This document shows, in pieces, positions 1-20,012 of a stretch of DNA of 20,799 bases. The stretch comes from a virus, in the IMG/VR virus record IMGVR_UViG_3300030117_006388, positions 1-20,799 of that record, one strand, 5' to 3'. The translations under genes were made by a program, and so were the position numbers. The first letter of the stretch is position 1, and the number at the start of each line of letters is the position of its first letter. Below the pieces are notes generated by a model. The model saw only the letters and a program-made list of their open reading frames with translations, was not told the origin of the DNA and did no database searches.

Positions 1-680
1 CAAAGCCTTATATCAACTACAATATGTGGGGCACAAAGACTGGGCGTATGACAACTCGCAAGCACTACTTCCCAATCCTCACACTTGATGGCGACTATCG
101 CTCTATCATCAAACCAACAAATGATTATTTTGTAGAACTTGACTACAATGCAGCGGAGCTTCGTGTTTTACTTAGTCTTAGTGGCAAAGTTCAGCCAACA
201 GAAGACATCCACACTTGGAACTTGAACAACGTGTATAGTGGAGTTGGAAGTAGGGAAGAGGCAAAAAAGCGCATCTTTGCTTGGCTTTACAACCCTCAGT
301 CAAAAGACTTTGCCTCTAATCGTGTTTATGAACGCGAGAGTGTTTTAAGAAAATACTGGAACGGACAAGTTGTAATAACTCCGATGGATCGTGTAATTCA
401 AGCGGATAAACACCACGCACTAAACTATTTAATACAAAGCACGACCAGCGATATCGTGCTATCACGAGCATTTAAAATTGCCGAGAAGCTTAAAGATAAA
501 AACTCTTTTATTTCTTTCACACTTCATGATAGTATTATTATAGACTTTGATGATGGCGAAAGAAAATTGGTGGAGGAGTTATTAAATATCTTTTCTCAAA
601 CACCTCTTGGGAAGTTTCAAGTTAATCTTAGCGCTGGCAAATCTTACGGGGATATGAGGAGGATTGAATGGACACAATAG
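1..680 (+). CDS. Family A DNA polymerase, C-terminal part (5'-truncated by window edge)
   Basis: The reading frame is open from base 3, so the gene begins upstream; about the last 226 residues are visible. They form the palm and fingers of a DNA polymerase I-family enzyme, which extends primers in template-directed DNA synthesis. Visible: GTKTGRMT (template-contact motif), motif A VELDYNAAELRVL with its metal-binding Asp, a motif B (O-helix)-like KKRIFAWLYN in which the usual final Gly is Asn, the HALNYLIQSTTSD segment, and motif C LHDSIIIDF with the His-Asp pair. The fingers between motifs B and C are shorter than in T7 or E. coli Pol I. Whether an exonuclease domain exists cannot be seen. 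The stop overlaps the next gene by 13 bases. Family assignment is secure; full length and role are unknown. Confidence 0.9.
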   Translation, partial: KPYINYNMWGTKTGRMTTRKHYFPILTLDGDYRSIIKPTNDYFVELDYNAAELRVLLSLSGKVQPTEDIHTWNLNNVYSGVGSREEAKKRIFAWLYNPQSKDFASNRVYERESVLRKYWNGQVVITPMDRVIQADKHHALNYLIQSTTSDIVLSRAFKIAEKLKDKNSFISFTLHDSIIIDFDDGERKLVEELLNIFSQTPLGKFQVNLSAGKSYGDMRRIEWTQ

Positions 681-1504
681 TTGGACTTGGAAAAGCCGGT
701 TGTGCTATTGCAGACAAATTTGCACAATATCCCCAGTACAAGGTTTTTAAAATTGACTCTGAGGGATTAGATTCAAAAAGCAAAAACAACTATGTCTTAA
801 CAAAGCAGGGCAGCCCAGAAGATTATGAAACAAGTGTTCGCTCCATGAAAACTTTTTTTAAAAGAATTACGGACGATGTTCTTTTTATTTTATCTGGCTC
901 TGGCATGATTTCAGGCTCGGCTTTACAAATCTTGAAGAACTTAAAAGATAGGAATGTCAACATTCTTTATATCAAGCCAGACTTGGAATTTCTTGGACAC
1001 AACAACATTCTTCAAGAGCGTGTTGTAAGAAATGTTCTACAAGAATACACTCGCTCTGGTCTTTTTAATCGCATCTTTCTTGTGGACAACAAGAGAATAG
1101 AACAGATCCTTGGTGAAGTTCCAATTATTGGCTATTATGATAAATTAAATGAACTTATCGTTTCCACTTTTCATATGGTCAATGTATACAACCACCAAGA
1201 AGCTATCCACGCAACCCCATTCGATACGGCAGACACAACTCGCATTTCTACACTTGGAATACTAAATGTTGAGGAGGGTGAAGAAAAATTGTTTTTTTCC
1301 CTTGACAACATCCGAGAGAAGTGTTATTATTATGCTATCAACTCAAAAGTTTTAGAAACAGACGGAAAGCTTTTGCGAACACTAACCGACAATATTAATA
1401 AAAACATTGGCAAAGAAGTTCGTGCCGGATTTCAAGTTTACTCTACCTCTTATGAGCAGAGTTATGGATACTTGGTTGCGAACACCGAGAAAACAAACAA
1501 TTAG
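668..1504 (+). CDS. Divergent FtsZ/tubulin-like GTPase
   Basis: This 278-residue protein follows the FtsZ/tubulin fold order. It has a T1-like glycine loop (IVGLGKAGCAIADKF, residues 4-18), then KIDSEG where FtsZ has INTDAQ. A strand DDVLFILSGSG leads to GMISGSA (79-85) in place of the signature GGGTG(T/S)G. YIKPDLEFLG (101-110) matches the FtsZ TKPFPFEG region and IFLVDNKRI (136-144) matches VIPNDRL. DTAD (186-189) matches the catalytic T7-loop DxxD. FtsZ and phage PhuZ proteins bind GTP and form filaments; that this one does so is inference. The signature motif is degenerate (three Gly lost), so nucleotide binding may be altered. A strong ribosome-binding site, AGGAGGA at 657-663, fixes the start inside the polymerase gene. 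An alternative is an uncharacterised Rossmann-like protein. Confidence 0.62.
   Translation: MDTIVGLGKAGCAIADKFAQYPQYKVFKIDSEGLDSKSKNNYVLTKQGSPEDYETSVRSMKTFFKRITDDVLFILSGSGMISGSALQILKNLKDRNVNILYIKPDLEFLGHNNILQERVVRNVLQEYTRSGLFNRIFLVDNKRIEQILGEVPIIGYYDKLNELIVSTFHMVNVYNHQEAIHATPFDTADTTRISTLGILNVEEGEEKLFFSLDNIREKCYYYAINSKVLETDGKLLRTLTDNINKNIGKEVRAGFQVYSTSYEQSYGYLVANTEKTNN
1302..1330 (+). promoter_or_regulatory. Sigma70-type promoter inside the FtsZ-like gene
   Basis: A -35 TTGACA (1302-1307) and a -10 TATTAT (1325-1330) are separated by 17 bases, with an extended -10 TG at 1322-1323. It lies within the coding region of the FtsZ-like gene and would transcribe the small membrane protein gene just downstream. 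The match is near consensus, but activity is inferred. Confidence 0.5.
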
Positions 1505-1511
1505 GACTTAT

Positions 1512-1787
1512 ATGAAAACCGCATTAAACTTTCTTAAAAACTATTGGAAAAGACTGGCTACTATGTTTGTCCTTTCGATGGTCGGAACTTTCGCAGCAAT
1601 TCAGGTTCATAAAAGTGGTATTGAAGTCGGAAAACATGTCGGACGATGTGAAATAACTTGTGCCCTCTTTATGGGCGACTTTATTGCTTACGATGATGAA
1701 GGCTGTCAATGTGAATTGGCACATGGATTTTTGATTACAGTTCCGATTAATCCAAATTATTTTGAAAATTCTTTGACAGAAGAATAA
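1512..1787 (+). CDS. Small single-pass membrane protein, function unknown
   Basis: The protein has 91 residues. Start chosen at the ATG preceded by AGGA (1503-1506), which overlaps the stop of the upstream gene; a longer frame reaching back to 1407 would overlap that gene by about 100 bases and has no ribosome-binding site. A basic N-terminus (KNYWKR) precedes one hydrophobic segment at about residues 15-31, so the positive-inside rule puts the N-terminus in the cytoplasm and the rest outside. The outer part holds four cysteines (46, 50, 65, 67), possibly disulfides or a metal site. I do not recognise the family. Lying 7 bases after the FtsZ-like gene, it could be a membrane partner, but no sequence feature shows this. 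It could equally be an exclusion or lysis-related protein. Confidence 0.65.
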   Translation: MKTALNFLKNYWKRLATMFVLSMVGTFAAIQVHKSGIEVGKHVGRCEITCALFMGDFIAYDDEGCQCELAHGFLITVPINPNYFENSLTEE

Positions 1788-1801
1788 AACTATGTTACAA
1801 T
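1773..1801 (+). promoter_or_regulatory. Strong sigma70-type promoter for the SSB-UvsX operon
   Basis: TTGACA (1773-1778), a 17-base spacer and TACAAT (1796-1801), with an extended -10 TG at 1793-1794. The predicted start near 1808 is about 67 bases before the SSB start codon and just upstream of a hairpin. Together they suggest early expression by host RNA polymerase. Confidence 0.7.
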
Positions 1802-1810
1802 CTTTAATAG

Positions 1811-1834
1811 CAAAGCGAGAGATTTATCGCTTTG
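1811..1834 (+). promoter_or_regulatory. Hairpin in the SSB mRNA leader
   Basis: A perfect 8-bp inverted repeat, CAAAGCGA (1811-1818) and TCGCTTTG (1827-1834), encloses an 8-base loop. It would sit almost at the 5' end of the transcript from the promoter at 1773. No U-tract follows, so it is not a terminator. A 5'-end hairpin could stabilise the message or take part in translational control, as the T4 gene 32 leader does; this is inference. Confidence 0.5.
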
Positions 1835-1874
1835 ACTCTAGACCAACCAGTCACAAACCAACAAGGAGATAAAA

Positions 1875-2636
1875 ATGGCAATTAATCTAGATAAAATGAG
1901 AGAGCGCAAAGCAGCGCTCGAAGGCAAAGGCGGCGGCAACCGCGATACATTCTGGCGTCCACAAGATGGCGAACAGTGTATTCGTATTGTTCCCACTGCT
2001 GACGGCGACCCCTTCAAGGACTTCTGGTTCCACTATAATGTGGGCAACAACCCAGGGTTCCTTAGTCCGAAGAGAAACTTCGGAGAAGAGGATCCGCTAA
2101 ATGATTTTGTTCGCAAGCTCTTCAATGAGGGCACCGAAGAAAGCATTAAGATGGCGAAGTCGCTTATGGCTCGTCAAAGGTTTTTCTCCCCCGTTCTCGT
2201 AAGAGGCGAGGAAGATAGAGGTGTCCGTATCTGGGGATATGGAAAGCAAGTTTATGAGCAATTGCTCAATCTTGTTCTCAACCCAGAATACGGAGATATT
2301 ACCGACACGGAAACGGGAACAGACCTCGTTCTCCACTATGGTAAGCCCCCAGGAGCAAGCTTCCCACAAACGAAGCTGACTCCGCGTCGTCGCTCTTCTG
2401 TTCTCTGTGATGATGCAGTCGGCGGTGATGACCGTTGCGCGGAATTGCTTGAAAGCATTCCTGAATTCGATACGCTTTTTGAGCGTAAAACGCCAGAAGA
2501 AGTTGGAGCACTGTTAGATGCTTATCTGCTTGGCGAAGAAGGCACCACGGAGGATACTAATACTACAACCCCTCCTCCCTCCACTGACACAGTATCCTCT
2601 GTTGATGCTGCCTTCAACGAACTCATGGGAGCGTAA
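1875..2636 (+). CDS. Single-stranded DNA-binding protein, T4 gp32-like
   Basis: This 253-residue protein coats single-stranded DNA at the replication fork and in recombination. The gp32-type layout is visible: a short basic N-terminus (NLDKMRERKAAL) like the cooperative-binding segment, then WRPQDGEQCIRIVP, FWFHYNV, SPKRNFGEEDPLNDFVRKLF, and PVLVRGEEDRGVRIWGYGKQVYEQLL of the OB-fold core. A Thr/Pro/Ser-rich acidic tail (about 223-243) ends in DAAFNELMGA and is the usual protein-recruitment arm. The Cys residues that form the zinc site in T4 gp32 are Ser, Asp and Asn here, so zinc binding appears lost. AAGGAG just upstream gives a strong ribosome-binding site, as expected for an abundant protein. 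UvsX follows after 63 bases. Confidence 0.82.
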   Translation: MAINLDKMRERKAALEGKGGGNRDTFWRPQDGEQCIRIVPTADGDPFKDFWFHYNVGNNPGFLSPKRNFGEEDPLNDFVRKLFNEGTEESIKMAKSLMARQRFFSPVLVRGEEDRGVRIWGYGKQVYEQLLNLVLNPEYGDITDTETGTDLVLHYGKPPGASFPQTKLTPRRRSSVLCDDAVGGDDRCAELLESIPEFDTLFERKTPEEVGALLDAYLLGEEGTTEDTNTTTPPPSTDTVSSVDAAFNELMGA

Positions 2637-2652
2637 TCCCCGCGCCCACAGG

Positions 2653-2677
2653 GAGGCACAGGGTCATCAGGTGCCTC
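2653..2677 (+). promoter_or_regulatory. Intergenic hairpin between SSB and UvsX genes
   Basis: A perfect 7-bp stem, GAGGCAC (2653-2659) with GTGCCTC (2671-2677), carries an 11-base loop. Only scattered Ts follow, so it is unlikely to be an efficient terminator. It could be a processing or stability element that makes SSB more abundant than UvsX. Function inferred only. Confidence 0.4.
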
Positions 2678-2699
2678 ACACCTTTACATTGGAGATTAA

Positions 2700-3821
2700 A
2701 TGAGAATGGCGAAAGCTAAAAATACAAAAGCTGGTAAGTTAAACTTATCTGATATGCGTGCTCTTATTAACAAGAGGGCTGGTCTTAATGTCGCCCACGA
2801 CTTGACCGAACAAAATCCTACTGAGGTTAAAGAGTGGATTCCAACTGGCTCTCGCTGGTTAGATTCAATTATTTGTCGTGGTAAACTTTCTGGTATCCCT
2901 GTCGGCAAGATTGTTGAGATTGCAGGCTTAGAGGCAACCGGCAAGTCCTATATGGCAGCACAAGTCGCTGCGAATGCTCAAAAGCTGGGAATTGATGTTA
3001 TTTATTTCGATTCAGAGTCGGCAATTGACCCCGGCTTTCTTGAAAAAGCGGGCTGTGATTTAAGCAGTCTTCTTTATGTTCAGGCTGCATCTGTTGAGTT
3101 TGTCTTAGAGACTATTGAAGACCTACTTGCCAACAATGATAATCGCATGTTATTTATCTGGGACTCGCTTGCGCTCACGCCTGCTATTTCTGATATTGAA
3201 GGCGATTTCAACCCCCAGTCTTCTATGGCTGTAAAGGCTCGTATTCTTGCCAAGGGTATGTCCAAGTTGACAGTTCCAATTGCGAACTCTCAATCAACAT
3301 TCTTGGTTTTAAATCAGCTAAAATCAAACATCACTCGCTCACCTTCCGAGGCTATGACAACTCCTTATGTCACACCAGGCGGAAAGGCTATGATCTATGC
3401 CTACTCGCTTCGTATCTGGCTAACAGGACGAAAAGCCAAGGCATCCTTTGTCACTGATGACAAGGGTTTCCGTATCGGTTCAGAAGTCAAGGTAAAGCTG
3501 GAAAAATCCCGCTTTGGAACCCAAGGAAGGCAGTGTAATTTTCGCATTTTATGGGGCGATGAGATTGGTATTCAAGATGACGAAAGTTTATTTGATGCTA
3601 TTGCAGGATCTTCAAGCTTAGTTCGCACTGGTGCTTGGTATACGCTCCTTGATTCTTCTGGTGAAGCTTTGGGTACAAAGTTTCAAGCAACTAAGTGGAC
3701 TGAGCGCATGACTGATGAAAGTTTTCGTGCAAGAGTTTACGAGATTATGGACGAAGAAGTTATTTATAAATTTGATAAGCGCGAAGGAAACGCAGCAGAT
3801 TTTTACGAAGAAGGTGAATAA
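2700..3821 (+). CDS. uvsX: UvsX/RecA-type recombinase
   Basis: This 373-residue protein is a RecA-family ATPase that forms filaments on single-stranded DNA and drives strand exchange in recombination-dependent replication and repair. The Walker A loop GLEATGKS lies at residues 76-83. It is followed by VIYFDSESAIDP (catalytic Glu region), Walker B-like MLFIWDSLAL, and FLVLNQLKSNI with the switch residues near a DNA-binding loop. The N-terminal substrate-selection sequence (TGSRWLDSIICRG) and the acidic C-terminus (NAADFYEEGE) resemble T4 UvsX. GGAG at 2691-2694 is 5 bases before the ATG at 2700; a second ATG at 2706 is possible but more distant. The SSB gene upstream is its natural partner. 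Length is close to the family norm. Confidence 0.88.
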   Translation: MRMAKAKNTKAGKLNLSDMRALINKRAGLNVAHDLTEQNPTEVKEWIPTGSRWLDSIICRGKLSGIPVGKIVEIAGLEATGKSYMAAQVAANAQKLGIDVIYFDSESAIDPGFLEKAGCDLSSLLYVQAASVEFVLETIEDLLANNDNRMLFIWDSLALTPAISDIEGDFNPQSSMAVKARILAKGMSKLTVPIANSQSTFLVLNQLKSNITRSPSEAMTTPYVTPGGKAMIYAYSLRIWLTGRKAKASFVTDDKGFRIGSEVKVKLEKSRFGTQGRQCNFRILWGDEIGIQDDESLFDAIAGSSSLVRTGAWYTLLDSSGEALGTKFQATKWTERMTDESFRARVYEIMDEEVIYKFDKREGNAADFYEEGE

Positions 3822-3828
3822 TGCGAAC

Positions 3829-3855
3829 TAATTATACGTCTAAAAAGTATAATTA
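3829..3855 (+). repeat. AT-rich inverted repeat upstream of the lipoprotein gene
   Basis: TAATTATAC (3829-3837) and GTATAATTA (3847-3855) form a perfect 9-bp inverted repeat around a 9-base spacer. It lies between the UvsX stop and the lipoprotein ribosome-binding site (AGGAG at 3862-3866). The right arm contains TATAAT (3848-3853), which could be a -10 box, but there is no good -35. It could be an operator or a weak RNA hairpin; there is no U-tract after it. Confidence 0.45.
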
Positions 3856-3871
3856 AGCAATAGGAGTTAAA

Positions 3872-4204
3872 ATGAAAAAGCTTATTACAACAGCACTATT
3901 TGGTGTTTTCTTGTCAGGATGTGTGGCACACGCTCACCCTCCACCGCCACAATCTCACTACCACGCTCACAAGCCAGTTCTTGTGAAGGCGTGGGTTTGG
4001 TCTCCAGGGTATTATCGTGCCAACGGAGTTTGGATCCGAGGGCATTGGTATGTTGATCGTGTTCAGCGATATAAGCTGAATCGCTATCCTCGTACACATA
4101 TTCGGTGGGTAGAGGGTCGCAGAAGACCTGTAAGACCAGATCGTCCACATCGTTATCATCGTGGACACCGACATAAACATCGTCATCGCCACCACCGACG
4201 ATAA
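3872..4204 (+). CDS. Small His-rich lipoprotein with WxPGY/WxxGxW repeat
   Basis: The 110-residue product starts with a lipoprotein signal peptide: basic KK, a hydrophobic stretch, and lipobox LSGC with Cys17 as the lipidation site. Val at the next position predicts outer-membrane sorting in Gram-negative hosts. The mature part has WVWSPGYYRANGVW then IRGHWY, the aromatic/Gly pattern of the YXWGXW-type repeat proteins of bacterial envelopes. The last ~25 residues are almost only His, Arg and Lys, a possible metal- or polyanion-binding tail. It has its own leader and is followed at once by a terminator, so it forms a one-gene unit between replication genes, like a 'moron'. Known phage lipoproteins often block superinfection; that role here is inference. 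No catalytic motif is seen. Confidence 0.75.
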   Translation: MKKLITTALFGVFLSGCVAHAHPPPPQSHYHAHKPVLVKAWVWSPGYYRANGVWIRGHWYVDRVQRYKLNRYPRTHIRWVEGRRRPVRPDRPHRYHRGHRHKHRHRHHRR

Positions 4205-4211
4205 ACAAATC

Positions 4212-4236
4212 GCCCCCTACTGGGGGCATTTTTTTT
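4212..4236 (+). terminator. Rho-independent terminator after the lipoprotein gene
   Basis: A 6-bp GC stem, GCCCCC (4212-4217) with GGGGGC (4222-4227), closes a TACT tetraloop. An A and then eight Ts (4229-4236) follow. It ends transcription 8 bases after the lipoprotein stop codon, and the next promoter begins 11 bases later. Confidence 0.93.
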
Positions 4237-4246
4237 AAGATAATGC

Positions 4247-4275
4247 TTGACAACGCTATTGTATGATGCTATATT
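4247..4275 (+). promoter_or_regulatory. Sigma70-type promoter for tRNA-Leu and the 5' nuclease
   Basis: TTGACA (4247-4252), a 17-base spacer and TATATT (4270-4275), with an extended -10 TG at 4267-4268. The predicted start near 4282 coincides with the 5' end of the tRNA, and the element sits immediately after a strong terminator, which supports it as a genuine promoter. Confidence 0.75.
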
Positions 4276-4283
4276 ATTATCAT

Positions 4284-4370
4284 GCTTGAGTGGTGGAATA
4301 GGTAGACACAAGGGACTTAAAATCCCTCGCTCAGTTGGGCATGCGGGTTCGATTCCCGCCTCAAGCACCA
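4284..4370 (+). tRNA. tRNA-Leu (anticodon UAA)
   Basis: An 87-base tRNA folds completely. The acceptor stem is GCTTGAG (4284-4290) with CTCAAGC (4360-4366), discriminator A and an encoded CCA (4368-4370). The anticodon stem AGGGA/TCCCT encloses CTTAAAA, with anticodon TAA at 4318-4320. A long variable arm (4328-4342, GCTC/GGGC stem) is the class II hallmark of tRNA-Leu. The T-arm GCGGG/CCCGC has loop TTCGATT. It reads UUA (and UUG) codons, which are frequent in the AT-leaning phage genes. It is the only tRNA seen in this window and shares a promoter with the downstream nuclease gene. Confidence 0.97.
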
Positions 4371-12487: not shown

Positions 12488-15400
12488 ATGAACGACCGTA
12501 CAAAATCCAACATCCCGTTCGTTGGGCTACACGCACATAGCGTGGCAGGATCATTATTTGACGCACTGGGATATCCACCAGATCATATGGATTTTGCATA
12601 TGAGAACGGCTGCGATGCACTTGCTCTTACAGACCACGGAAATGCAAATGGTCTTTCTCATCAAGTGCTTCATGCTAAAAAGATGAAGGAGCAAGGTAAA
12701 GCCTTTAAGCCCATCTTTGGATGTGAAGCATACTTTATTCCATCTATCGCTGAATGGCGTAATGAGTATGAAAGAGCACTTGAAGACAAAAAGCGTGCCA
12801 AGACACTCGGTTCAGAGTTGAGCGGTGCCACTGTAGAGGACGAAAACTCCAGTAAAAAAGTCCAAGATGTATTGCGCCGCCGTCGTCATCTTATCCTCCT
12901 CGCCCAAAATCAAACAGGGCTTCAAAACCTATTTAAACTAATTTCTGAAAGCTATAAGAGTGAAAACTTCTATCGCTATCCTCGTATGGATTATGATCTC
13001 CTTGCGAAGTATGGCGAGGGGATTATCGCTGCCTCTGCCTGCCTTGGCGGTGTCTACGCTGGAAATTTCTGGGAGAACCGCGAAGAGGGTGACGAGGCTG
13101 TTCTTAACGCCATGCGTGAGACAACTCGCAGAATGGTCGCTATCTTTGGTGACCGCTGGTATGGCGAGCTACAATGGAACAATGTTCCAGAACAGCATAA
13201 GCTAAATCAGTTTATTATTAAGATGCATGAAGAGTTTGGTATTGGGCTTATCTCAACGGCGGACAGCCACTATCCAAACCCCGATGCGTGGAAAGACCGC
13301 GAGCTTTATAAGCGCCTCGGCTGGCTTGGAAAGGCTGCTCCGTCTTATGAGAGCACCGAACTTCCAATTGACGTTGATGAGATTGGTTATGAGCTTTATC
13401 CAAAGAACGGCGACCAAATGTGGGAGAGCTACAAGAAGTATTCCGCCGAGTGTGGTGTTGAATACGACGATGATCTTGTCCTTCAGTCCATCAGACACAC
13501 TCACGAAATCGCTCATCAGCGTATTGAAGACTTCCTGCCAGATAATACTGTTCGCCTTCCAGATTTTGTTGTTCCCGCAGGATATACAGCAACACAGGCG
13601 CTTGTCAATATGTCTATTGAGGGCTTGCGGGTAAAAGGCTTTCATAGCGATAAAGAATATACAGAGCGCCTCCGTCACGAACTCACCGTTATTGATGACC
13701 GAGGTTTCTCAAAATATTTCTTAACCATGAAGGCGATTGCAGACCGAGCCAACGATTGTATGCTTACAGGTCCAGGTCGTGGTTCTGCCGCAGGATCCCT
13801 TGTTGCTTACGCTCTCGGCATCACCCAGATCGACCCGATTAAGTATGGTCTGTTGTTCTCACGTTTCCTGCGCTCTGACGCTACTGATTATCCAGATATT
13901 GACTATGATGTAGCGGCACCGATGGAACTAAAAGAACAATTGATTGAGGAGTGGGGCGACACCACCGTTGTTCCCATTTCTAACTGGAACACGCTTCAGT
14001 TGCGTTCTCTTATCAAGGATATTTCCAAGTTCTACGGCATTCCGTTTAAGGAGGTAAATGAGGTCACAGGCAAGATGCTTTTAGAGGCAACTCCAGCCGC
14101 CAAGAAGGCACACGGCATTAAGGCAGGTGTGTATACTCCCACCTTTGAGGAGACGAAAGAATATTCTCCAACCCTCCAAGCGTTTTTGAACAAGTATACC
14201 AATATCGCTAATCATATTGATATGTTATATGGTCAGGTGCGCTCCTGTTCTCGTCATGCAGGTGGTGTTGTGGTCGGTGAAAATCTCGACAAGTGGATGC
14301 CACTGATTAACTCCAAGGGTGTCCGTCAGACGCCCTGGGCAGAGGGACAGAACGTCCGTCACTTGGAGCCAATGGGCTTTATCAAGTTTGATATTCTTGG
14401 GCTTTCCACCCTTGCGATGATTGATGGTGCTATCCGTCATATTTTGAAGCGAGAACACGATATTGAAGAGCCATCATTTAATGATGTAAAAGATTATTAT
14501 AATAAACACCTACACCCAGACACTATCAATTTAGACAATCAAGAAGTCTACAAAAATATCTTTCATACCGGCAAGTGGGCAGGAATCTTCCAGTTTACAG
14601 AGAAGGGCGCTCAGGGTTTTTGCCAGCGAGCAAAGCCCACGAGTATCGTGGATATATCAGCCATCACATCCATCTTTCGCCCAGGTCCATTGTCAGCGAA
14701 AGTTGATGACCAGTATGTAGAAGCCAAGCAGCAGCCGCAGTACATTAAGTATGACCACCCGCTTATCCAAGAGGTAACCGAGGAAACCTACGGCTTCCTT
14801 ATCTTTCAAGAACAGATTGCAATTCTGGCTCACAAGCTGGGCAAGGGCTTGTCTCTTGATGAGGGCAACAAGCTCCGCAAACTTCTCACCAAGAAGGGAA
14901 CGGGCAAGGGTCACGAAGCCAAGATGAAGATCCATTCTAAGTTCATCACCGGCTGTGTCGAGAAGGGTATTCGCCACAATGTAGCCGAAGAGATTTGGAA
15001 TAAGTTTGAATATTTCTCAGGCTATGGATTCAACAAGTCCCATGCTGTGTCTTATTCTATGTTGTCTTACCAGTGTGCGTGGTTGGCTCATCACCACCCC
15101 GCAGAGTGGATGGCTGCGTTCTTAGACAAAGAGCCCGAGAGCCGAAAAGAAAAAGCTATCAATATTGCGAAGGGCTTTGGTTTTGGTATCCGCAAGCTGG
15201 ATGTTAATACTTCTGGTCGTGTTTGGGAGATCTCCAAAGATGGACAAACCCTTATTCAGCCGCTAACTTCTATTAAGGGTCTTGGCGAGGCTGCGATTGC
15301 ACAGATTATTAGTAACCGACCCTTTGAAAAGGTTGAAGATTTTATCTTTAACGATAATATGGTATATTCCAAGCTTAACAAGAAGGCACTGGATGTGCTT

Positions 15401-15919
15401 GTACGCTCAGGTGCGATGAATGGGCTTGTAGATGATCGATTTAGTGGTCTCAAGCACTTCTGGTCCGCAGTTGCTGTTGATCGACCACGAAAGCTAAAGA
15501 AGTTTGAAGAAAATATTGAGTTGTATCGTCCAGAGGGCGACTTTGACGAAGAGGATATTATTCAATACACTGTTGAGCTTACAGGCGTATTTCCAATGTC
15601 CGAGGTGATGAACAGCGATATTATGGACAAGTTGTACCAGAATATGATTCCACCCATTGGAGAGTTTGACCCTGACTTGCGCGTGACTTGGTTTATTCCT
15701 CGCAAGATTGTTCCGAGGAAGACAAAGAACAATAAAGAATATTGGGTTGTTGAAGTCATTGACGATACCGGCACAACTGCAAATATTAAGTGCTGGGGTG
15801 TCAACTCAAAGTTTGATATCCTGTATCTTAACCGCCCATATATGGCAAAACTCGACTGGCACCCTACGTGGGGCTTTAGCACGAGATCACTAAAACATAA
15901 TTTTAGACTATTATCTTGA
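12488..15919 (+). CDS. dnaE: DNA polymerase III alpha subunit-like (family C, DnaE-type) polymerase
   Basis: This 1143-residue protein is a complete family C replicative polymerase. The N-terminal PHP domain keeps a full-looking set of metal ligands: HAH (15, 17), Asp25, DH (49-50), Glu80, His134, Cys185, Asp259 and His261. E. coli DnaE has lost several of these. A charged ~45-residue insertion lies between Glu80 and His134. The catalytic core shows LTGPGRGSAAGSL (residues ~428-440) and PDIDYD with Asp470/Asp472; CSRHAGGVVVG marks the region of the third Asp. Helix-hairpin-helix-like (IKGLGEAAIAQI) and OB-fold (KEYWVVEVIDDTGTTANIKC) domains follow. A strong GAGGAGGG precedes the ATG. E. coli DnaE is 1160 residues, so length is normal. 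No epsilon proofreader, clamp or clamp loader is seen in the window. Confidence 0.96.
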   Translation: MNDRTKSNIPFVGLHAHSVAGSLFDALGYPPDHMDFAYENGCDALALTDHGNANGLSHQVLHAKKMKEQGKAFKPIFGCEAYFIPSIAEWRNEYERALEDKKRAKTLGSELSGATVEDENSSKKVQDVLRRRRHLILLAQNQTGLQNLFKLISESYKSENFYRYPRMDYDLLAKYGEGIIAASACLGGVYAGNFWENREEGDEAVLNAMRETTRRMVAIFGDRWYGELQWNNVPEQHKLNQFIIKMHEEFGIGLISTADSHYPNPDAWKDRELYKRLGWLGKAAPSYESTELPIDVDEIGYELYPKNGDQMWESYKKYSAECGVEYDDDLVLQSIRHTHEIAHQRIEDFLPDNTVRLPDFVVPAGYTATQALVNMSIEGLRVKGFHSDKEYTERLRHELTVIDDRGFSKYFLTMKAIADRANDCMLTGPGRGSAAGSLVAYALGITQIDPIKYGLLFSRFLRSDATDYPDIDYDVAAPMELKEQLIEEWGDTTVVPISNWNTLQLRSLIKDISKFYGIPFKEVNEVTGKMLLEATPAAKKAHGIKAGVYTPTFEETKEYSPTLQAFLNKYTNIANHIDMLYGQVRSCSRHAGGVVVGENLDKWMPLINSKGVRQTPWAEGQNVRHLEPMGFIKFDILGLSTLAMIDGAIRHILKREHDIEEPSFNDVKDYYNKHLHPDTINLDNQEVYKNIFHTGKWAGIFQFTEKGAQGFCQRAKPTSIVDISAITSIFRPGPLSAKVDDQYVEAKQQPQYIKYDHPLIQEVTEETYGFLIFQEQIAILAHKLGKGLSLDEGNKLRKLLTKKGTGKGHEAKMKIHSKFITGCVEKGIRHNVAEEIWNKFEYFSGYGFNKSHAVSYSMLSYQCAWLAHHHPAEWMAAFLDKEPESRKEKAINIAKGFGFGIRKLDVNTSGRVWEISKDGQTLIQPLTSIKGLGEAAIAQIISNRPFEKVEDFIFNDNMVYSKLNKKALDVLVRSGAMNGLVDDRFSGLKHFWSAVAVDRPRKLKKFEENIELYRPEGDFDEEDIIQYTVELTGVFPMSEVMNSDIMDKLYQNMIPPIGEFDPDLRVTWFIPRKIVPRKTKNNKEYWVVEVIDDTGTTANIKCWGVNSKFDILYLNRPYMAKLDWHPTWGFSTRSLKHNFRLLS

Positions 15920-18147: not shown

Positions 18148-18432
18148 ATGAACCGTAAACAACGACGTGCAAGAGAAGCACAAATTCGCAAGGATAGCAA
18201 TGACGAATTAGCAGCCCAAGTTGCTATGTTCGGCAAGCTACCTGAACAATGCACCGCTTGCGAAAAAGTTTTTGACACAAAGGACAAAGAAATGGCAACG
18301 ACTTGGAATGTTGTTGTCAGAAAGGAAGATGAGGAAAACCCTGTCCGACTTTACTGCCCGACTTGTTGGGACACAGCCCAAGAAGTTATTGCGAACTTTT
18401 TTAAGCAAATGGAAGAAGACAATGAATCTTGA
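18148..18432 (+). CDS. Zinc-ribbon protein of unknown function, marine-phage type
   Basis: The product has 94 residues. A very basic start (MNRKQRRAREAQIRK) is followed by FGKLPEQCTACEKVFDTKD and, after ~30 residues, LYCPTCWDTA. The two CxxC pairs (Cys35/38 and Cys70/73) should bind one zinc. The layout resembles small zinc proteins I recall from T4-like marine phages; their function is not known to me. A GAGAG-type ribosome-binding site lies just upstream, 11 bases after the methyltransferase stop. It overlaps the next gene by 11 bases. Confidence 0.78.
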   Translation: MNRKQRRAREAQIRKDSNDELAAQVAMFGKLPEQCTACEKVFDTKDKEMATTWNVVVRKEDEENPVRLYCPTCWDTAQEVIANFFKQMEEDNES

Positions 18433-19453
18433 AACACACATCACCTTTGACGATGTTCTGTTAGTGCCACAATACAGCGATATTAGATCTCGCGCAGAGG
18501 TTTCTCTATCGTCAGAACTGTCAGAGGGCTTGGAACTTCGTGTTCCAATTATTTCGGCACCAATGGATACAGTGTGCGGTCAACATATGGCTGCTAAAAT
18601 GGCTGAATTTGGAGCGCTCGGTGTTATTCACCGCTATAATACAATTGAAACACAAGCAGAGCTTGTATCGAACGCATCAAAAAAAGGATTAAAAAATGTG
18701 GGTGCCGCTATCGGAATCACGGGTGACTACGTTGAACGTGCTGCTGCTCTAATCGAGGCAGGTGCTAGCGTTCTTTGTTTGGATGTCGCTCACGGGGATC
18801 ATGTCTTGATGCACGTTGCCGCTCATAACATTGTTGATAGATTTAGCAACATAGCACACATTATGGCGGGAAACGTTGCAACATATACAGGTGCTCTTGC
18901 TCTCGCACACATTGGGGTTGAGAGTGTTCGAGTCGGCATCGGTGGCGGTTCTATCTGTTCCACTCGTATCCAAACTGGACACGGAATGCCAACACTGGCT
19001 TCTGTTATTGACTGTGTTAGGGTAAAAGAAAAGTTTCCTAATTTTAAAATCATCGCTGATGGTGGAATCAAGACATCTGGGGATATGGTTAAAGCTTTAG
19101 CTGCGGGCGCAGACTTTGTGATGGTCGGCTCCCTACTGGCTGGAACCTCTGAATCTCCAGGCGATGTTATTTATAAAGATGGTGAGAGATACAAGTCTTA
19201 TCGAGGCATGGCAAGCAAAGATGCCCAGATGGATTGGCGAGGAAAAACGTCTTCTCTTGAAGGCGTGGCGACAGTCATCCCTTATAAAGGTGCAGTATTT
19301 CCTGTGTTAGAGGGGCTTGAAAACGGTATTCGCAGCGGACTTTCATATTCAGGTGTTCGCAATCTTGTGCAACTGCGCGAAGATGCCAAGTTTATTCGCC
19401 AAACCGCTTCCGGTCTTGCTGAGAGCAATACCCACATTATGTGGAGATACTAA
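18422..19453 (+). CDS. IMP dehydrogenase / GMP reductase family enzyme without CBS domains
   Basis: This 343-residue TIM-barrel enzyme starts TFDDVLLVPQYSDIRSR and has VPIISAPMDTVCG, CLDVAHGD, GNVATYTGA and VGIGGGSICSTRI with the catalytic Cys179. IIADGGI-SGDMVKALAAGADFVMVGSLLAG and YRGMASKDAQ follow. The CBS pair of normal IMP dehydrogenase (about 490 residues) is absent. The flap after YRGM is short and lacks the Arg-Tyr dyad of IMP dehydrogenase, as in GMP reductase. It could therefore make XMP from IMP (towards GTP) or convert GMP to IMP. The ATG at 18422 is chosen because it starts the conserved domain and follows GGAAG. An upstream same-frame extension overlaps the zinc-ribbon gene and is rejected. 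Confidence 0.88.
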   Translation: MNLETHITFDDVLLVPQYSDIRSRAEVSLSSELSEGLELRVPIISAPMDTVCGQHMAAKMAEFGALGVIHRYNTIETQAELVSNASKKGLKNVGAAIGITGDYVERAAALIEAGASVLCLDVAHGDHVLMHVAAHNIVDRFSNIAHIMAGNVATYTGALALAHIGVESVRVGIGGGSICSTRIQTGHGMPTLASVIDCVRVKEKFPNFKIIADGGIKTSGDMVKALAAGADFVMVGSLLAGTSESPGDVIYKDGERYKSYRGMASKDAQMDWRGKTSSLEGVATVIPYKGAVFPVLEGLENGIRSGLSYSGVRNLVQLREDAKFIRQTASGLAESNTHIMWRY

Positions 19454-19791
19454 TGCCAAAAAAACAGTGGGATGAAAAAGGCGAGAAGATACAAACTTAT
19501 ATACCCGAATCACATAAGGTAGAGCTAAAGATACGCCTCCATCACCACGGCATGACCCAAGCAGGTTTTTTGCGAGGGATCATTAAAGCATTCTTAGAAG
19601 AGGACGCTCAATTTATGGCGTGGTTTAACGAATGGAAGTTGCGCAACAGCAAAGTCAAGTCATCGAAAAGACACGCTAAATCAGATAAGCTAAAACAAAA
19701 AGGAAAAGAACTCTCGTCGATGTTTGGGATTAACGAGGGAGAACTTGATAATATCTTTGATGTTATCGCACAGGAGCACCCAGACCTATGA
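19453..19791 (+). CDS. Ribbon-helix-helix-like small protein, putative regulator
   Basis: The product has 112 residues. The segment KIQTYIPESHKVELKIRL, then MTQAGFLRGIIKAFLEED, has the strand-helix-helix spacing of ribbon-helix-helix DNA-binding proteins. A basic linker (KVKSSKRHAKSDKLKQKGKE) and an acidic C-terminal helix (ELDNIFDVIAQEHPDL) follow. The ATG at 19453 overlaps the upstream TAA as TAATG and has GGAG 6 bases before it; a GTG at 19441 in the same frame is less likely. The gene overlaps the next by 4 bases (ATGA). The context with a sigma-like protein suggests a role in transcription, which is inferred. Confidence 0.68.
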   Translation: MPKKQWDEKGEKIQTYIPESHKVELKIRLHHHGMTQAGFLRGIIKAFLEEDAQFMAWFNEWKLRNSKVKSSKRHAKSDKLKQKGKELSSMFGINEGELDNIFDVIAQEHPDL

Positions 19792-20012
19792 TTGAATGCG
19801 CTAAAAAATGTTGTGAACTCAAGGTATCGTGCCCAATTTCGGATTGTCGAGATTGGGTTGAATACGAAGAAGATTTAAACTGTGTCAATATCGCGGTTGA
19901 TAAAAATGGACCAATGAAACTCCGTCAGATTGCGGAACGTCTTGGTGTTACGACTGCCAGGGCACAGCAGTTAGAAAAGGCTGCTTTGGCTAAATTAAAG
20001 AAACTTATGTAA
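19788..20012 (+). CDS. Stand-alone sigma-70 region 4-like protein with Cys-rich N-terminus
   Basis: The product has 74 residues. The C-terminal half (GPMKLRQIAERLGVTTARAQ, then LEKAALAKLKK, residues 41-72) matches the helix-turn-helix of sigma-70 region 4, which reads the -35 box and binds the RNA polymerase beta flap. The N-terminal half has six cysteines (4, 8, 9, 15, 20, 32), likely a small zinc fold. No regions 2 or 3 exist, so it cannot be a full sigma factor. It may act as a late-transcription factor or co-activator, comparable in concept to T4 gp33/gp55; this is inference. It is translationally coupled to the upstream gene and is the last gene before a 79-base gap. Confidence 0.75.
   Translation: MIECAKKCCELKVSCPISDCRDWVEYEEDLNCVNIAVDKNGPMKLRQIAERLGVTTARAQQLEKAALAKLKKLM

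Follow-up and report, generated by a model that had tools for sequence, protein, structure and literature searches.

A minimal, divergent tubulin/FtsZ-fold protein encoded in the replication operon of uncultured marine T4-type phages

Introduction

A gene located between those of a family A DNA polymerase and a gp32-like single-strand DNA-binding protein (SSB) in an uncultured phage encodes what is almost certainly, by fold and homology, a minimal and divergent member of the tubulin/FtsZ superfamily. We call this protein TubL, and the stretch of DNA in which it was found (20,799 nt of the IMG/VR record IMGVR_UViG_3300030117_006388, positions 1 to 20,799, one strand) is here referred to as the window. 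Its one fixed position among the replication genes of a large phage lineage suggests a tubulin-shaped protein that serves genome replication, rather than the centring of a phage nucleus. The reading that we favour, tentatively and with slightly less than even confidence, is that TubL is a nucleotide-binding component of the replication machinery (a scaffold or a switch), a GTP-hydrolysing filament or FtsZ decoy role being less likely.

If the favoured reading is true, TubL would be, to our knowledge, the first member of the tubulin superfamily to act in or on a replisome and not as a division or transport filament. Phage tubulins have so far been regarded as a mark of the nucleus-forming jumbo phages (Chimalliviridae, in a survey of tailed phages), with a handful elsewhere (PMC11835377), and TubL is a core gene in an abundant uncultured lineage of T4 type. 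Additionally, the standard profile libraries miss TubL and, therefore, viral tubulin counts based on PF00091 are too low. Two questions are raised by these observations: what a tubulin fold does within a replication operon, and how much the GTPase signature can change before the fold ceases to be that of a filament GTPase.

Results and Discussion

tubL is a core gene of the replication operon

The tubL reading frame, which has a Shine-Dalgarno-like gaggagga immediately 5' of its ATG, is located in the window among the following genes:

3..680, + strand: end of the family A DNA polymerase gene (polA; PF00476, E 4.2e-13), overlapping tubL by 13 nt
668..1504, + strand: tubL, ATG open reading frame of 278 aa (P0001), predicted divergent tubulin/FtsZ-fold protein
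1512..1787, + strand: small protein with a single hydrophobic stretch and four cysteines (CEITC...CQC), without Pfam match
1875..2636, + strand: gp32-like SSB (PF08804, E 3.1e-11)
2700..3821, + strand: RecA/UvsX-type recombinase (PF00154, E 5.6e-35)

The open reading frame is a genuine gene, since it has homologues in at least 590 IMG/VR loci, evolves under strong purifying selection (dN/dS 0.03-0.09) and occupies a fixed site between polA and the gp32 gene; the homologues and the dN/dS rule out a chance or spurious reading frame. Moreover, tubL is a vertically inherited core gene of its phage lineage. Among the testable loci, PolA lies upstream of tubL in 109/111 and the gp32-like SSB lies downstream of it in 126/128, with RecA/UvsX and then a 5'-3' exonuclease and DnaB coming next across loci. 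Of 99 loci, 46 have a polA-tubL overlap of exactly 13 nt, and in 71 it falls within 30 nt. When the scan was seeded with the SSB, and not with TubL, 67 of the 68 testable loci carried TubL, and the sole locus without it (L222) has only 1.7 kb of upstream sequence, too little to show that the gene is missing. TubL distances correlate with those of the SSB (r 0.77) and of RecA (r 0.71), the latter two correlating with each other to a similar degree (0.70). This fixed and translationally coupled place points to a replication role for TubL, although the position in the operon may mirror the timing of expression and not a physical role.

The small membrane-type protein encoded at 1512-1787 was considered as an obligate partner of TubL and rejected as a general one, given that it is present in only 45/128 tubL loci, mainly those of the window's clade. 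Two sigma-70-like promoters were also observed in this region of the window, a near-perfect extended one (TTGACA-17-TACAAT) at 1773-1801, before the gp32-like gene, and a second one (TTGACA-17-TATTAT) inside tubL, at 1302-1330.

Sequence comparison and predicted fold

The TubL family is new to the libraries searched. P0001 has no match in Pfam (including PF00091) and only sub-threshold matches in PHROGs, and a search of the sequences of solved PDB structures with the family profile (hmmsearch) gave nothing convincing. Among 34 TubL members, PF00091 matches two (2/34), with an E of 0.014 or worse, under the curated cut-off. The hhalign alignment between TubL and FtsZ is collinear from T1 through H7 (server score 36.7, E 3.6e-4), and its score is marginal and settings-dependent: it reached 26.2 against a maximum of 22.9 from 40 column-shuffles, 23.4 with other settings (below the maximum of 25.5 from 100 shuffles), and, with 169 TubL sequences, 26.2 where the shuffles peaked at 19.8. 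With these results, a proof of homology from sequence only fails.

Because the FtsZ profile comparison is marginal and depends on the settings, the fold assignment rests on structures. Using a 32-sequence alignment of IMG/VR relatives as input, AlphaFold2 (AF2) produced a model of TubL with a pLDDT of 93.8 and a pTM of 0.91, for which Foldseek retrieved 503 PDB matches at E <= 0.001. The best 50 of these 503 comprise FtsZ and TubZ proteins only (E 9e-13 to 6e-11), with TMq values of 0.65-0.75 (TM ~0.7), 12-15% identity and approximately the whole chain aligned. A second model, obtained for a distant TubL branch with an SSNY-type T4 segment (pLDDT 89), again has FtsZ and TubZ as its best 50 PDB matches (best E 1.4e-12). 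The models from the two branches present the two-domain tubulin/FtsZ architecture, with a nucleotide-binding Rossmann domain, the central helix H7 and a C-terminal activation domain. In the viral structure library (BFVD), the best matches are annotated as FtsZ, cell division protein, PhuZ or tubulin, and some are unnamed. Two independent AF2 models, together with their Foldseek matches, thus give strong support to the tubulin/FtsZ fold that an earlier note on this DNA, based on the sequence alone, had called, and the tubulin core, whose absence from a predicted structure would by that note's own criterion have refuted the call, is present in the TubL models.

These comparisons also bear on whether the fold is used in an enzymatic or sensing role, as in a protein that binds NAD(P) or another nucleotide, which we regard as very improbable. 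The GxGxxG motif of TubL and D30, at the end of strand 2, do fit an NAD-type Rossmann site, as do the weak Pfam matches to TrkA_N in 10/34 members (best E 4.6e-6) and those to the saccharopine-dehydrogenase NADP domain, and to this extent they also count against a replisome role. Nevertheless, the TrkA_N-type matches are generic Rossmann similarity only. The full-length structural matches are FtsZ and TubZ, no NAD(P)-Rossmann protein appears among the best 50 PDB structural matches of either model, no profile match to such a full domain is significant and, in the viral structure library, Rossmann epimerases reach a TMq of 0.3-0.4 versus 0.7-0.8 for the FtsZ-like proteins.

The putative nucleotide site: kept, altered and gained elements

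The conservation of individual residues was counted over 169 distinct TubL homologues. The relevant elements in the window are:

683..706, + strand: T1-like glycine loop, residues 6-13 (GLGKAGCA), by hhalign to FtsZ T1
896..922, + strand: T4 position, residues 77-85 (GSGMISGSA), in place of GGGTG(T/S)G, by hhalign to FtsZ T4
1040..1060, + strand: family signature at the end of H5, residues 125-131 (QEYTRSG; consensus QEYARSG), from the 169 homologues
1088..1090, + strand: T6 Asn141, aligned with the FtsZ PNDK asparagine by sequence-profile alignment
1133..1150, + strand: start of H7, residues 156-161 (YYDKLN), with the tubulin-like base-recognition position N161, by alignment
1223..1234, + strand: T7-like DTAD, residues 186-189, in the window's TubL

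All the elements quoted in the earlier note (the T1-like loop, KIDSEG at residues 28-33, DDVLFILSGSG at 69-79, GMISGSA at 79-85, IKPDLEFLG at 102-110, LVDNKRI at 138-144 and DTAD) occur in TubL where it had placed them. The T1-like element of the window's protein (G6-L-G8-K-A-G11) reads GLGQAGCN or GLGQAGCNIA in many other clades, with G6 present in 168/169 homologues and G8 in all 169/169. Asn141 is conserved in 160/169, N161 in 159/169 and Y156 in 151/169; we take N161, by alignment and from knowledge of the family, to be the base-recognising H7 position of tubulins, with an H7 register that may be off by one residue. Overall, each of the pocket positions G6, G8, N141 and N161 is retained in 94% or more of the 169 sequences.

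The GMISGSA that had been pointed out instead of the phosphate-binding signature GGGTG(T/S)G is present, and the departure from the T4 motif is family-wide, with GxISGA as the consensus and SSNY in one clade. The statement that DTAD keeps the two catalytic acids is correct for the window's TubL and does not extend to the family, since residue 186 is D/E in only 76/169 homologues and residue 189 in 126/169. The segment 176-192 (T7/linker) is among the more variable parts of the protein (entropy 2.41 vs the TubL mean of 1.92), in comparison with a T7 DFAD that is invariant in 19 FtsZs; R192, within this segment, is conserved. Additionally, the AF2 model has neither the H8 helix nor a C-terminal extension, tail or H11, given that the chain stops 5 residues past the last strand. 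The replaced T4 glycines, the variable T7 and the absence of H8 and of the C-terminal tail argue against a classic GTP-hydrolysing filament. On the other hand, the family has invariants of its own, namely Q125, R129 and S130 (169/169 homologues), and the entropy of the H5-S6 turn is as low as 1.02 vs the same mean.

The phage lineage

The T4-type marker gp23 was found in 8/13 TubL records, including the five largest (the other five are fragments), in agreement with the T4-like setting that had been assigned to this DNA. For the one gp23 examined, taken from a TubL record, the closest sequences are those of Flavobacterium phage immuto, Microcystis phage Mel-JY01 and Rhodothermus phage RM378, which makes the TubL phages, an uncultured marine lineage of T4 type, a Far-T4-related group. 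Tubulin goes unmentioned in the Far-T4 paper (PMC4360716), and a 2026 study linked marine Far-T4-like phages mainly to Flavobacteriales (PMC13037479). A WOR-3 host, derived from a MAG match (L143; CP070664.1, 79% identity), was rejected, because the MAG "chromosome" is a string of contigs separated by runs of 100 N, in which the sequence of this phage type occupies a 5-kb contig of its own, present through binning contamination.

The cultured Far-T4 relatives have the same operon order without TubL, and the TubL profile found no homologue in them. A replisome of this type does not, in general, therefore require TubL, which weighs against a replisome role. The genes at tubL's place in immuto and Mel-JY01 were tried as homologues and rejected, as they have no match to TubL. 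Immuto gp002 (L286:1346-1801) and a Mel-JY01 gene (L285:7675-8064) resemble each other, both containing VHRKKESNT.YTIN.LN, and lie near the same spot after polA, roughly the place of TubL in the marine lineage. DnaE (DNA polymerase III alpha) is encoded by the window and by all five large TubL contigs tested, whereas immuto and Mel-JY01 lack it; in the window, it is a protein of 1143 aa (12488-15919) additional to the family A polymerase.

Comparison with known tubulin-like systems

Bacterial FtsZ (PDB 5mn5, 4dxd, 1fsz and others) is the best Foldseek family for TubL, and has in common with it the whole-chain fold, the order of the elements, the T1 glycines, the T6 asparagine and H7. In contrast to FtsZ, TubL lacks the GGGTG(T/S)G signature, an invariant T7, H8, the C-terminal linker and the conserved tail peptide. 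TubZ, from plasmid and phage partition systems, also has a tubulin fold and is among the top PDB matches (4ei7, 2xka); however, TubL does not have its long C-terminal helix, and sits in a replication operon, with no iterons, repeat array or partition site found beside the gene (window 1-4300) and no obvious TubR-like gene adjoining it (the neighbours being PolA, the small membrane-type protein and gp32). The best viral structural match (TMq 0.80) is A0A6J5RW92, an "FtsZ Cell division GTPase" of an uncultured phage (BFVD), which differs from TubL in its length (452 aa), shares 16% identity with it and, being annotated as FtsZ, is presumably more canonical.

PhuZ of the Chimalliviridae (phiKZ gp39) is, like TubL, a phage-encoded tubulin fold of large myoviruses, and it might be thought that TubL similarly polymerises head to tail, positioning or segregating replicating phage DNA or capsids despite its altered signature, which we consider rather doubtful. 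The full tubulin/FtsZ fold of the model (including the C-terminal domain), the kept T1 and base-recognition positions, the acidic residue found at 189 in most homologues and the conserved R192 are consistent with such a role, for which phage tubulins provide precedent (PMC4244570, PMC3678025). The invariant residues, moreover, lie towards both ends of the N-domain (by secondary-structure order), which also fits a head-to-tail assembly and counts against a replisome role. However, the phiKZ tubulin interface involves T7 and the base of H8, with the tail ordered on the neighbouring subunit, and PhuZ possesses helix H11 as well as an acidic tail (PMC3678025), whereas in TubL T7 is variable and H8, H11 and the tail are absent. 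The T4 signature motif, present in the PhuZ homologue of RAY (PMC10299810), is lost in TubL, and the PhuZ of Noxifer in BFVD is a weak structural match (TMq 0.51). The phages differ as well, since the nuclear shell protein (chimallin) and the multisubunit RNA polymerase of PhuZ phages were not found with TubL: BLAST with phiKZ gp54 gave no match in the 13 TubL records (the query finds itself, and a very divergent shell could escape), and no Rpb2-type polymerase was found.

A second tubulin-like family, TubL2, is present in the same lineage. This canonical FtsZ-like protein (~364 aa) is encoded by a genome that also encodes TubL (G003; L293:3390-4481 = G003:C1:103389-104480, - strand), contains an N-terminal acidic extension and the motifs AGGGGGTGSA and FDsKDLE, and matches FtsZ profiles with a probability of 97% (E 5e-11), being nevertheless under the PF00091 cut-off (28 vs 33 bits). 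TubL2 occurs in at least 107 IMG/VR loci and in none from INPHARED, and was not detected in three further TubL genomes (G001, G002 and G004), profile search included. Many of the genes flanking its loci also occur in G001-G004, but the loci lie at several distinct sites in the genome, and TubL2 therefore looks like an accessory gene of the lineage in which TubL, with its altered signature, is a fixed core gene.

TubL might also cap, block or seed filaments of TubL2, with which it coexists in G003, or of the host FtsZ, for instance to stop host division. A tubulin fold that lacks an evident catalytic T7/H8 face could serve as a filament cap, and there is precedent for phages that inhibit FtsZ through small proteins (PMC3961180, PMC10714956). 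We consider this modulation unlikely, given the fixed place of tubL in the replication operon, the genomes in which TubL was found without TubL2, and an identity to FtsZ of only 12-15%, which makes copolymerisation with the host protein improbable. The roles put forward in the earlier note (a cytomotive filament, or a decoy interfering with host FtsZ) find no specific support in a protein with this low identity, a lost signature, a variable T7 and no H8 or tail.

A proposed role in replication

A nucleotide-binding scaffold or switch within the replication machinery is favoured by several features taken together: base-binding positions that are kept, a signature that is lost, a T7 that varies, the lack of H8 and tail, a new invariant surface, and the strict coupling with the polymerase and SSB genes. 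We infer that TubL binds a nucleotide and partner proteins and that it does not undergo classic GTPase cycling. In the mechanism that we propose, TubL would be made together with DNA polymerase A through translational coupling and would bind a guanine nucleotide via the retained T1, T6 and H7 positions, acting as a nucleotide-dependent scaffold or switch that may dock on PolA, gp32, UvsX and the helicase through the family-specific QEYARSG surface. Any TubL assembly would be short or non-hydrolysing, and not a dynamic, GTP-burning filament. In a broader perspective, we consider it possible, though less likely than not, that a whole marine T4-type lineage has incorporated a protein of tubulin fold into the machinery of its replication as a core part common to all members, its phosphate loop being replaced and its QEYARSG surface new and invariant, with some members having TubL2 as well.

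Other genes of the window

Further along the window, a gene for IMP dehydrogenase (GTP synthesis) was found at 18428-19453 (PF00478, E 5.7e-107), which is also present in 5/8 other TubL records tested and in Mel-JY01, as well as a 74-aa protein with a match to sigma-70 region 4, at 19788-20012 (PF04545, E 1.5e-6).
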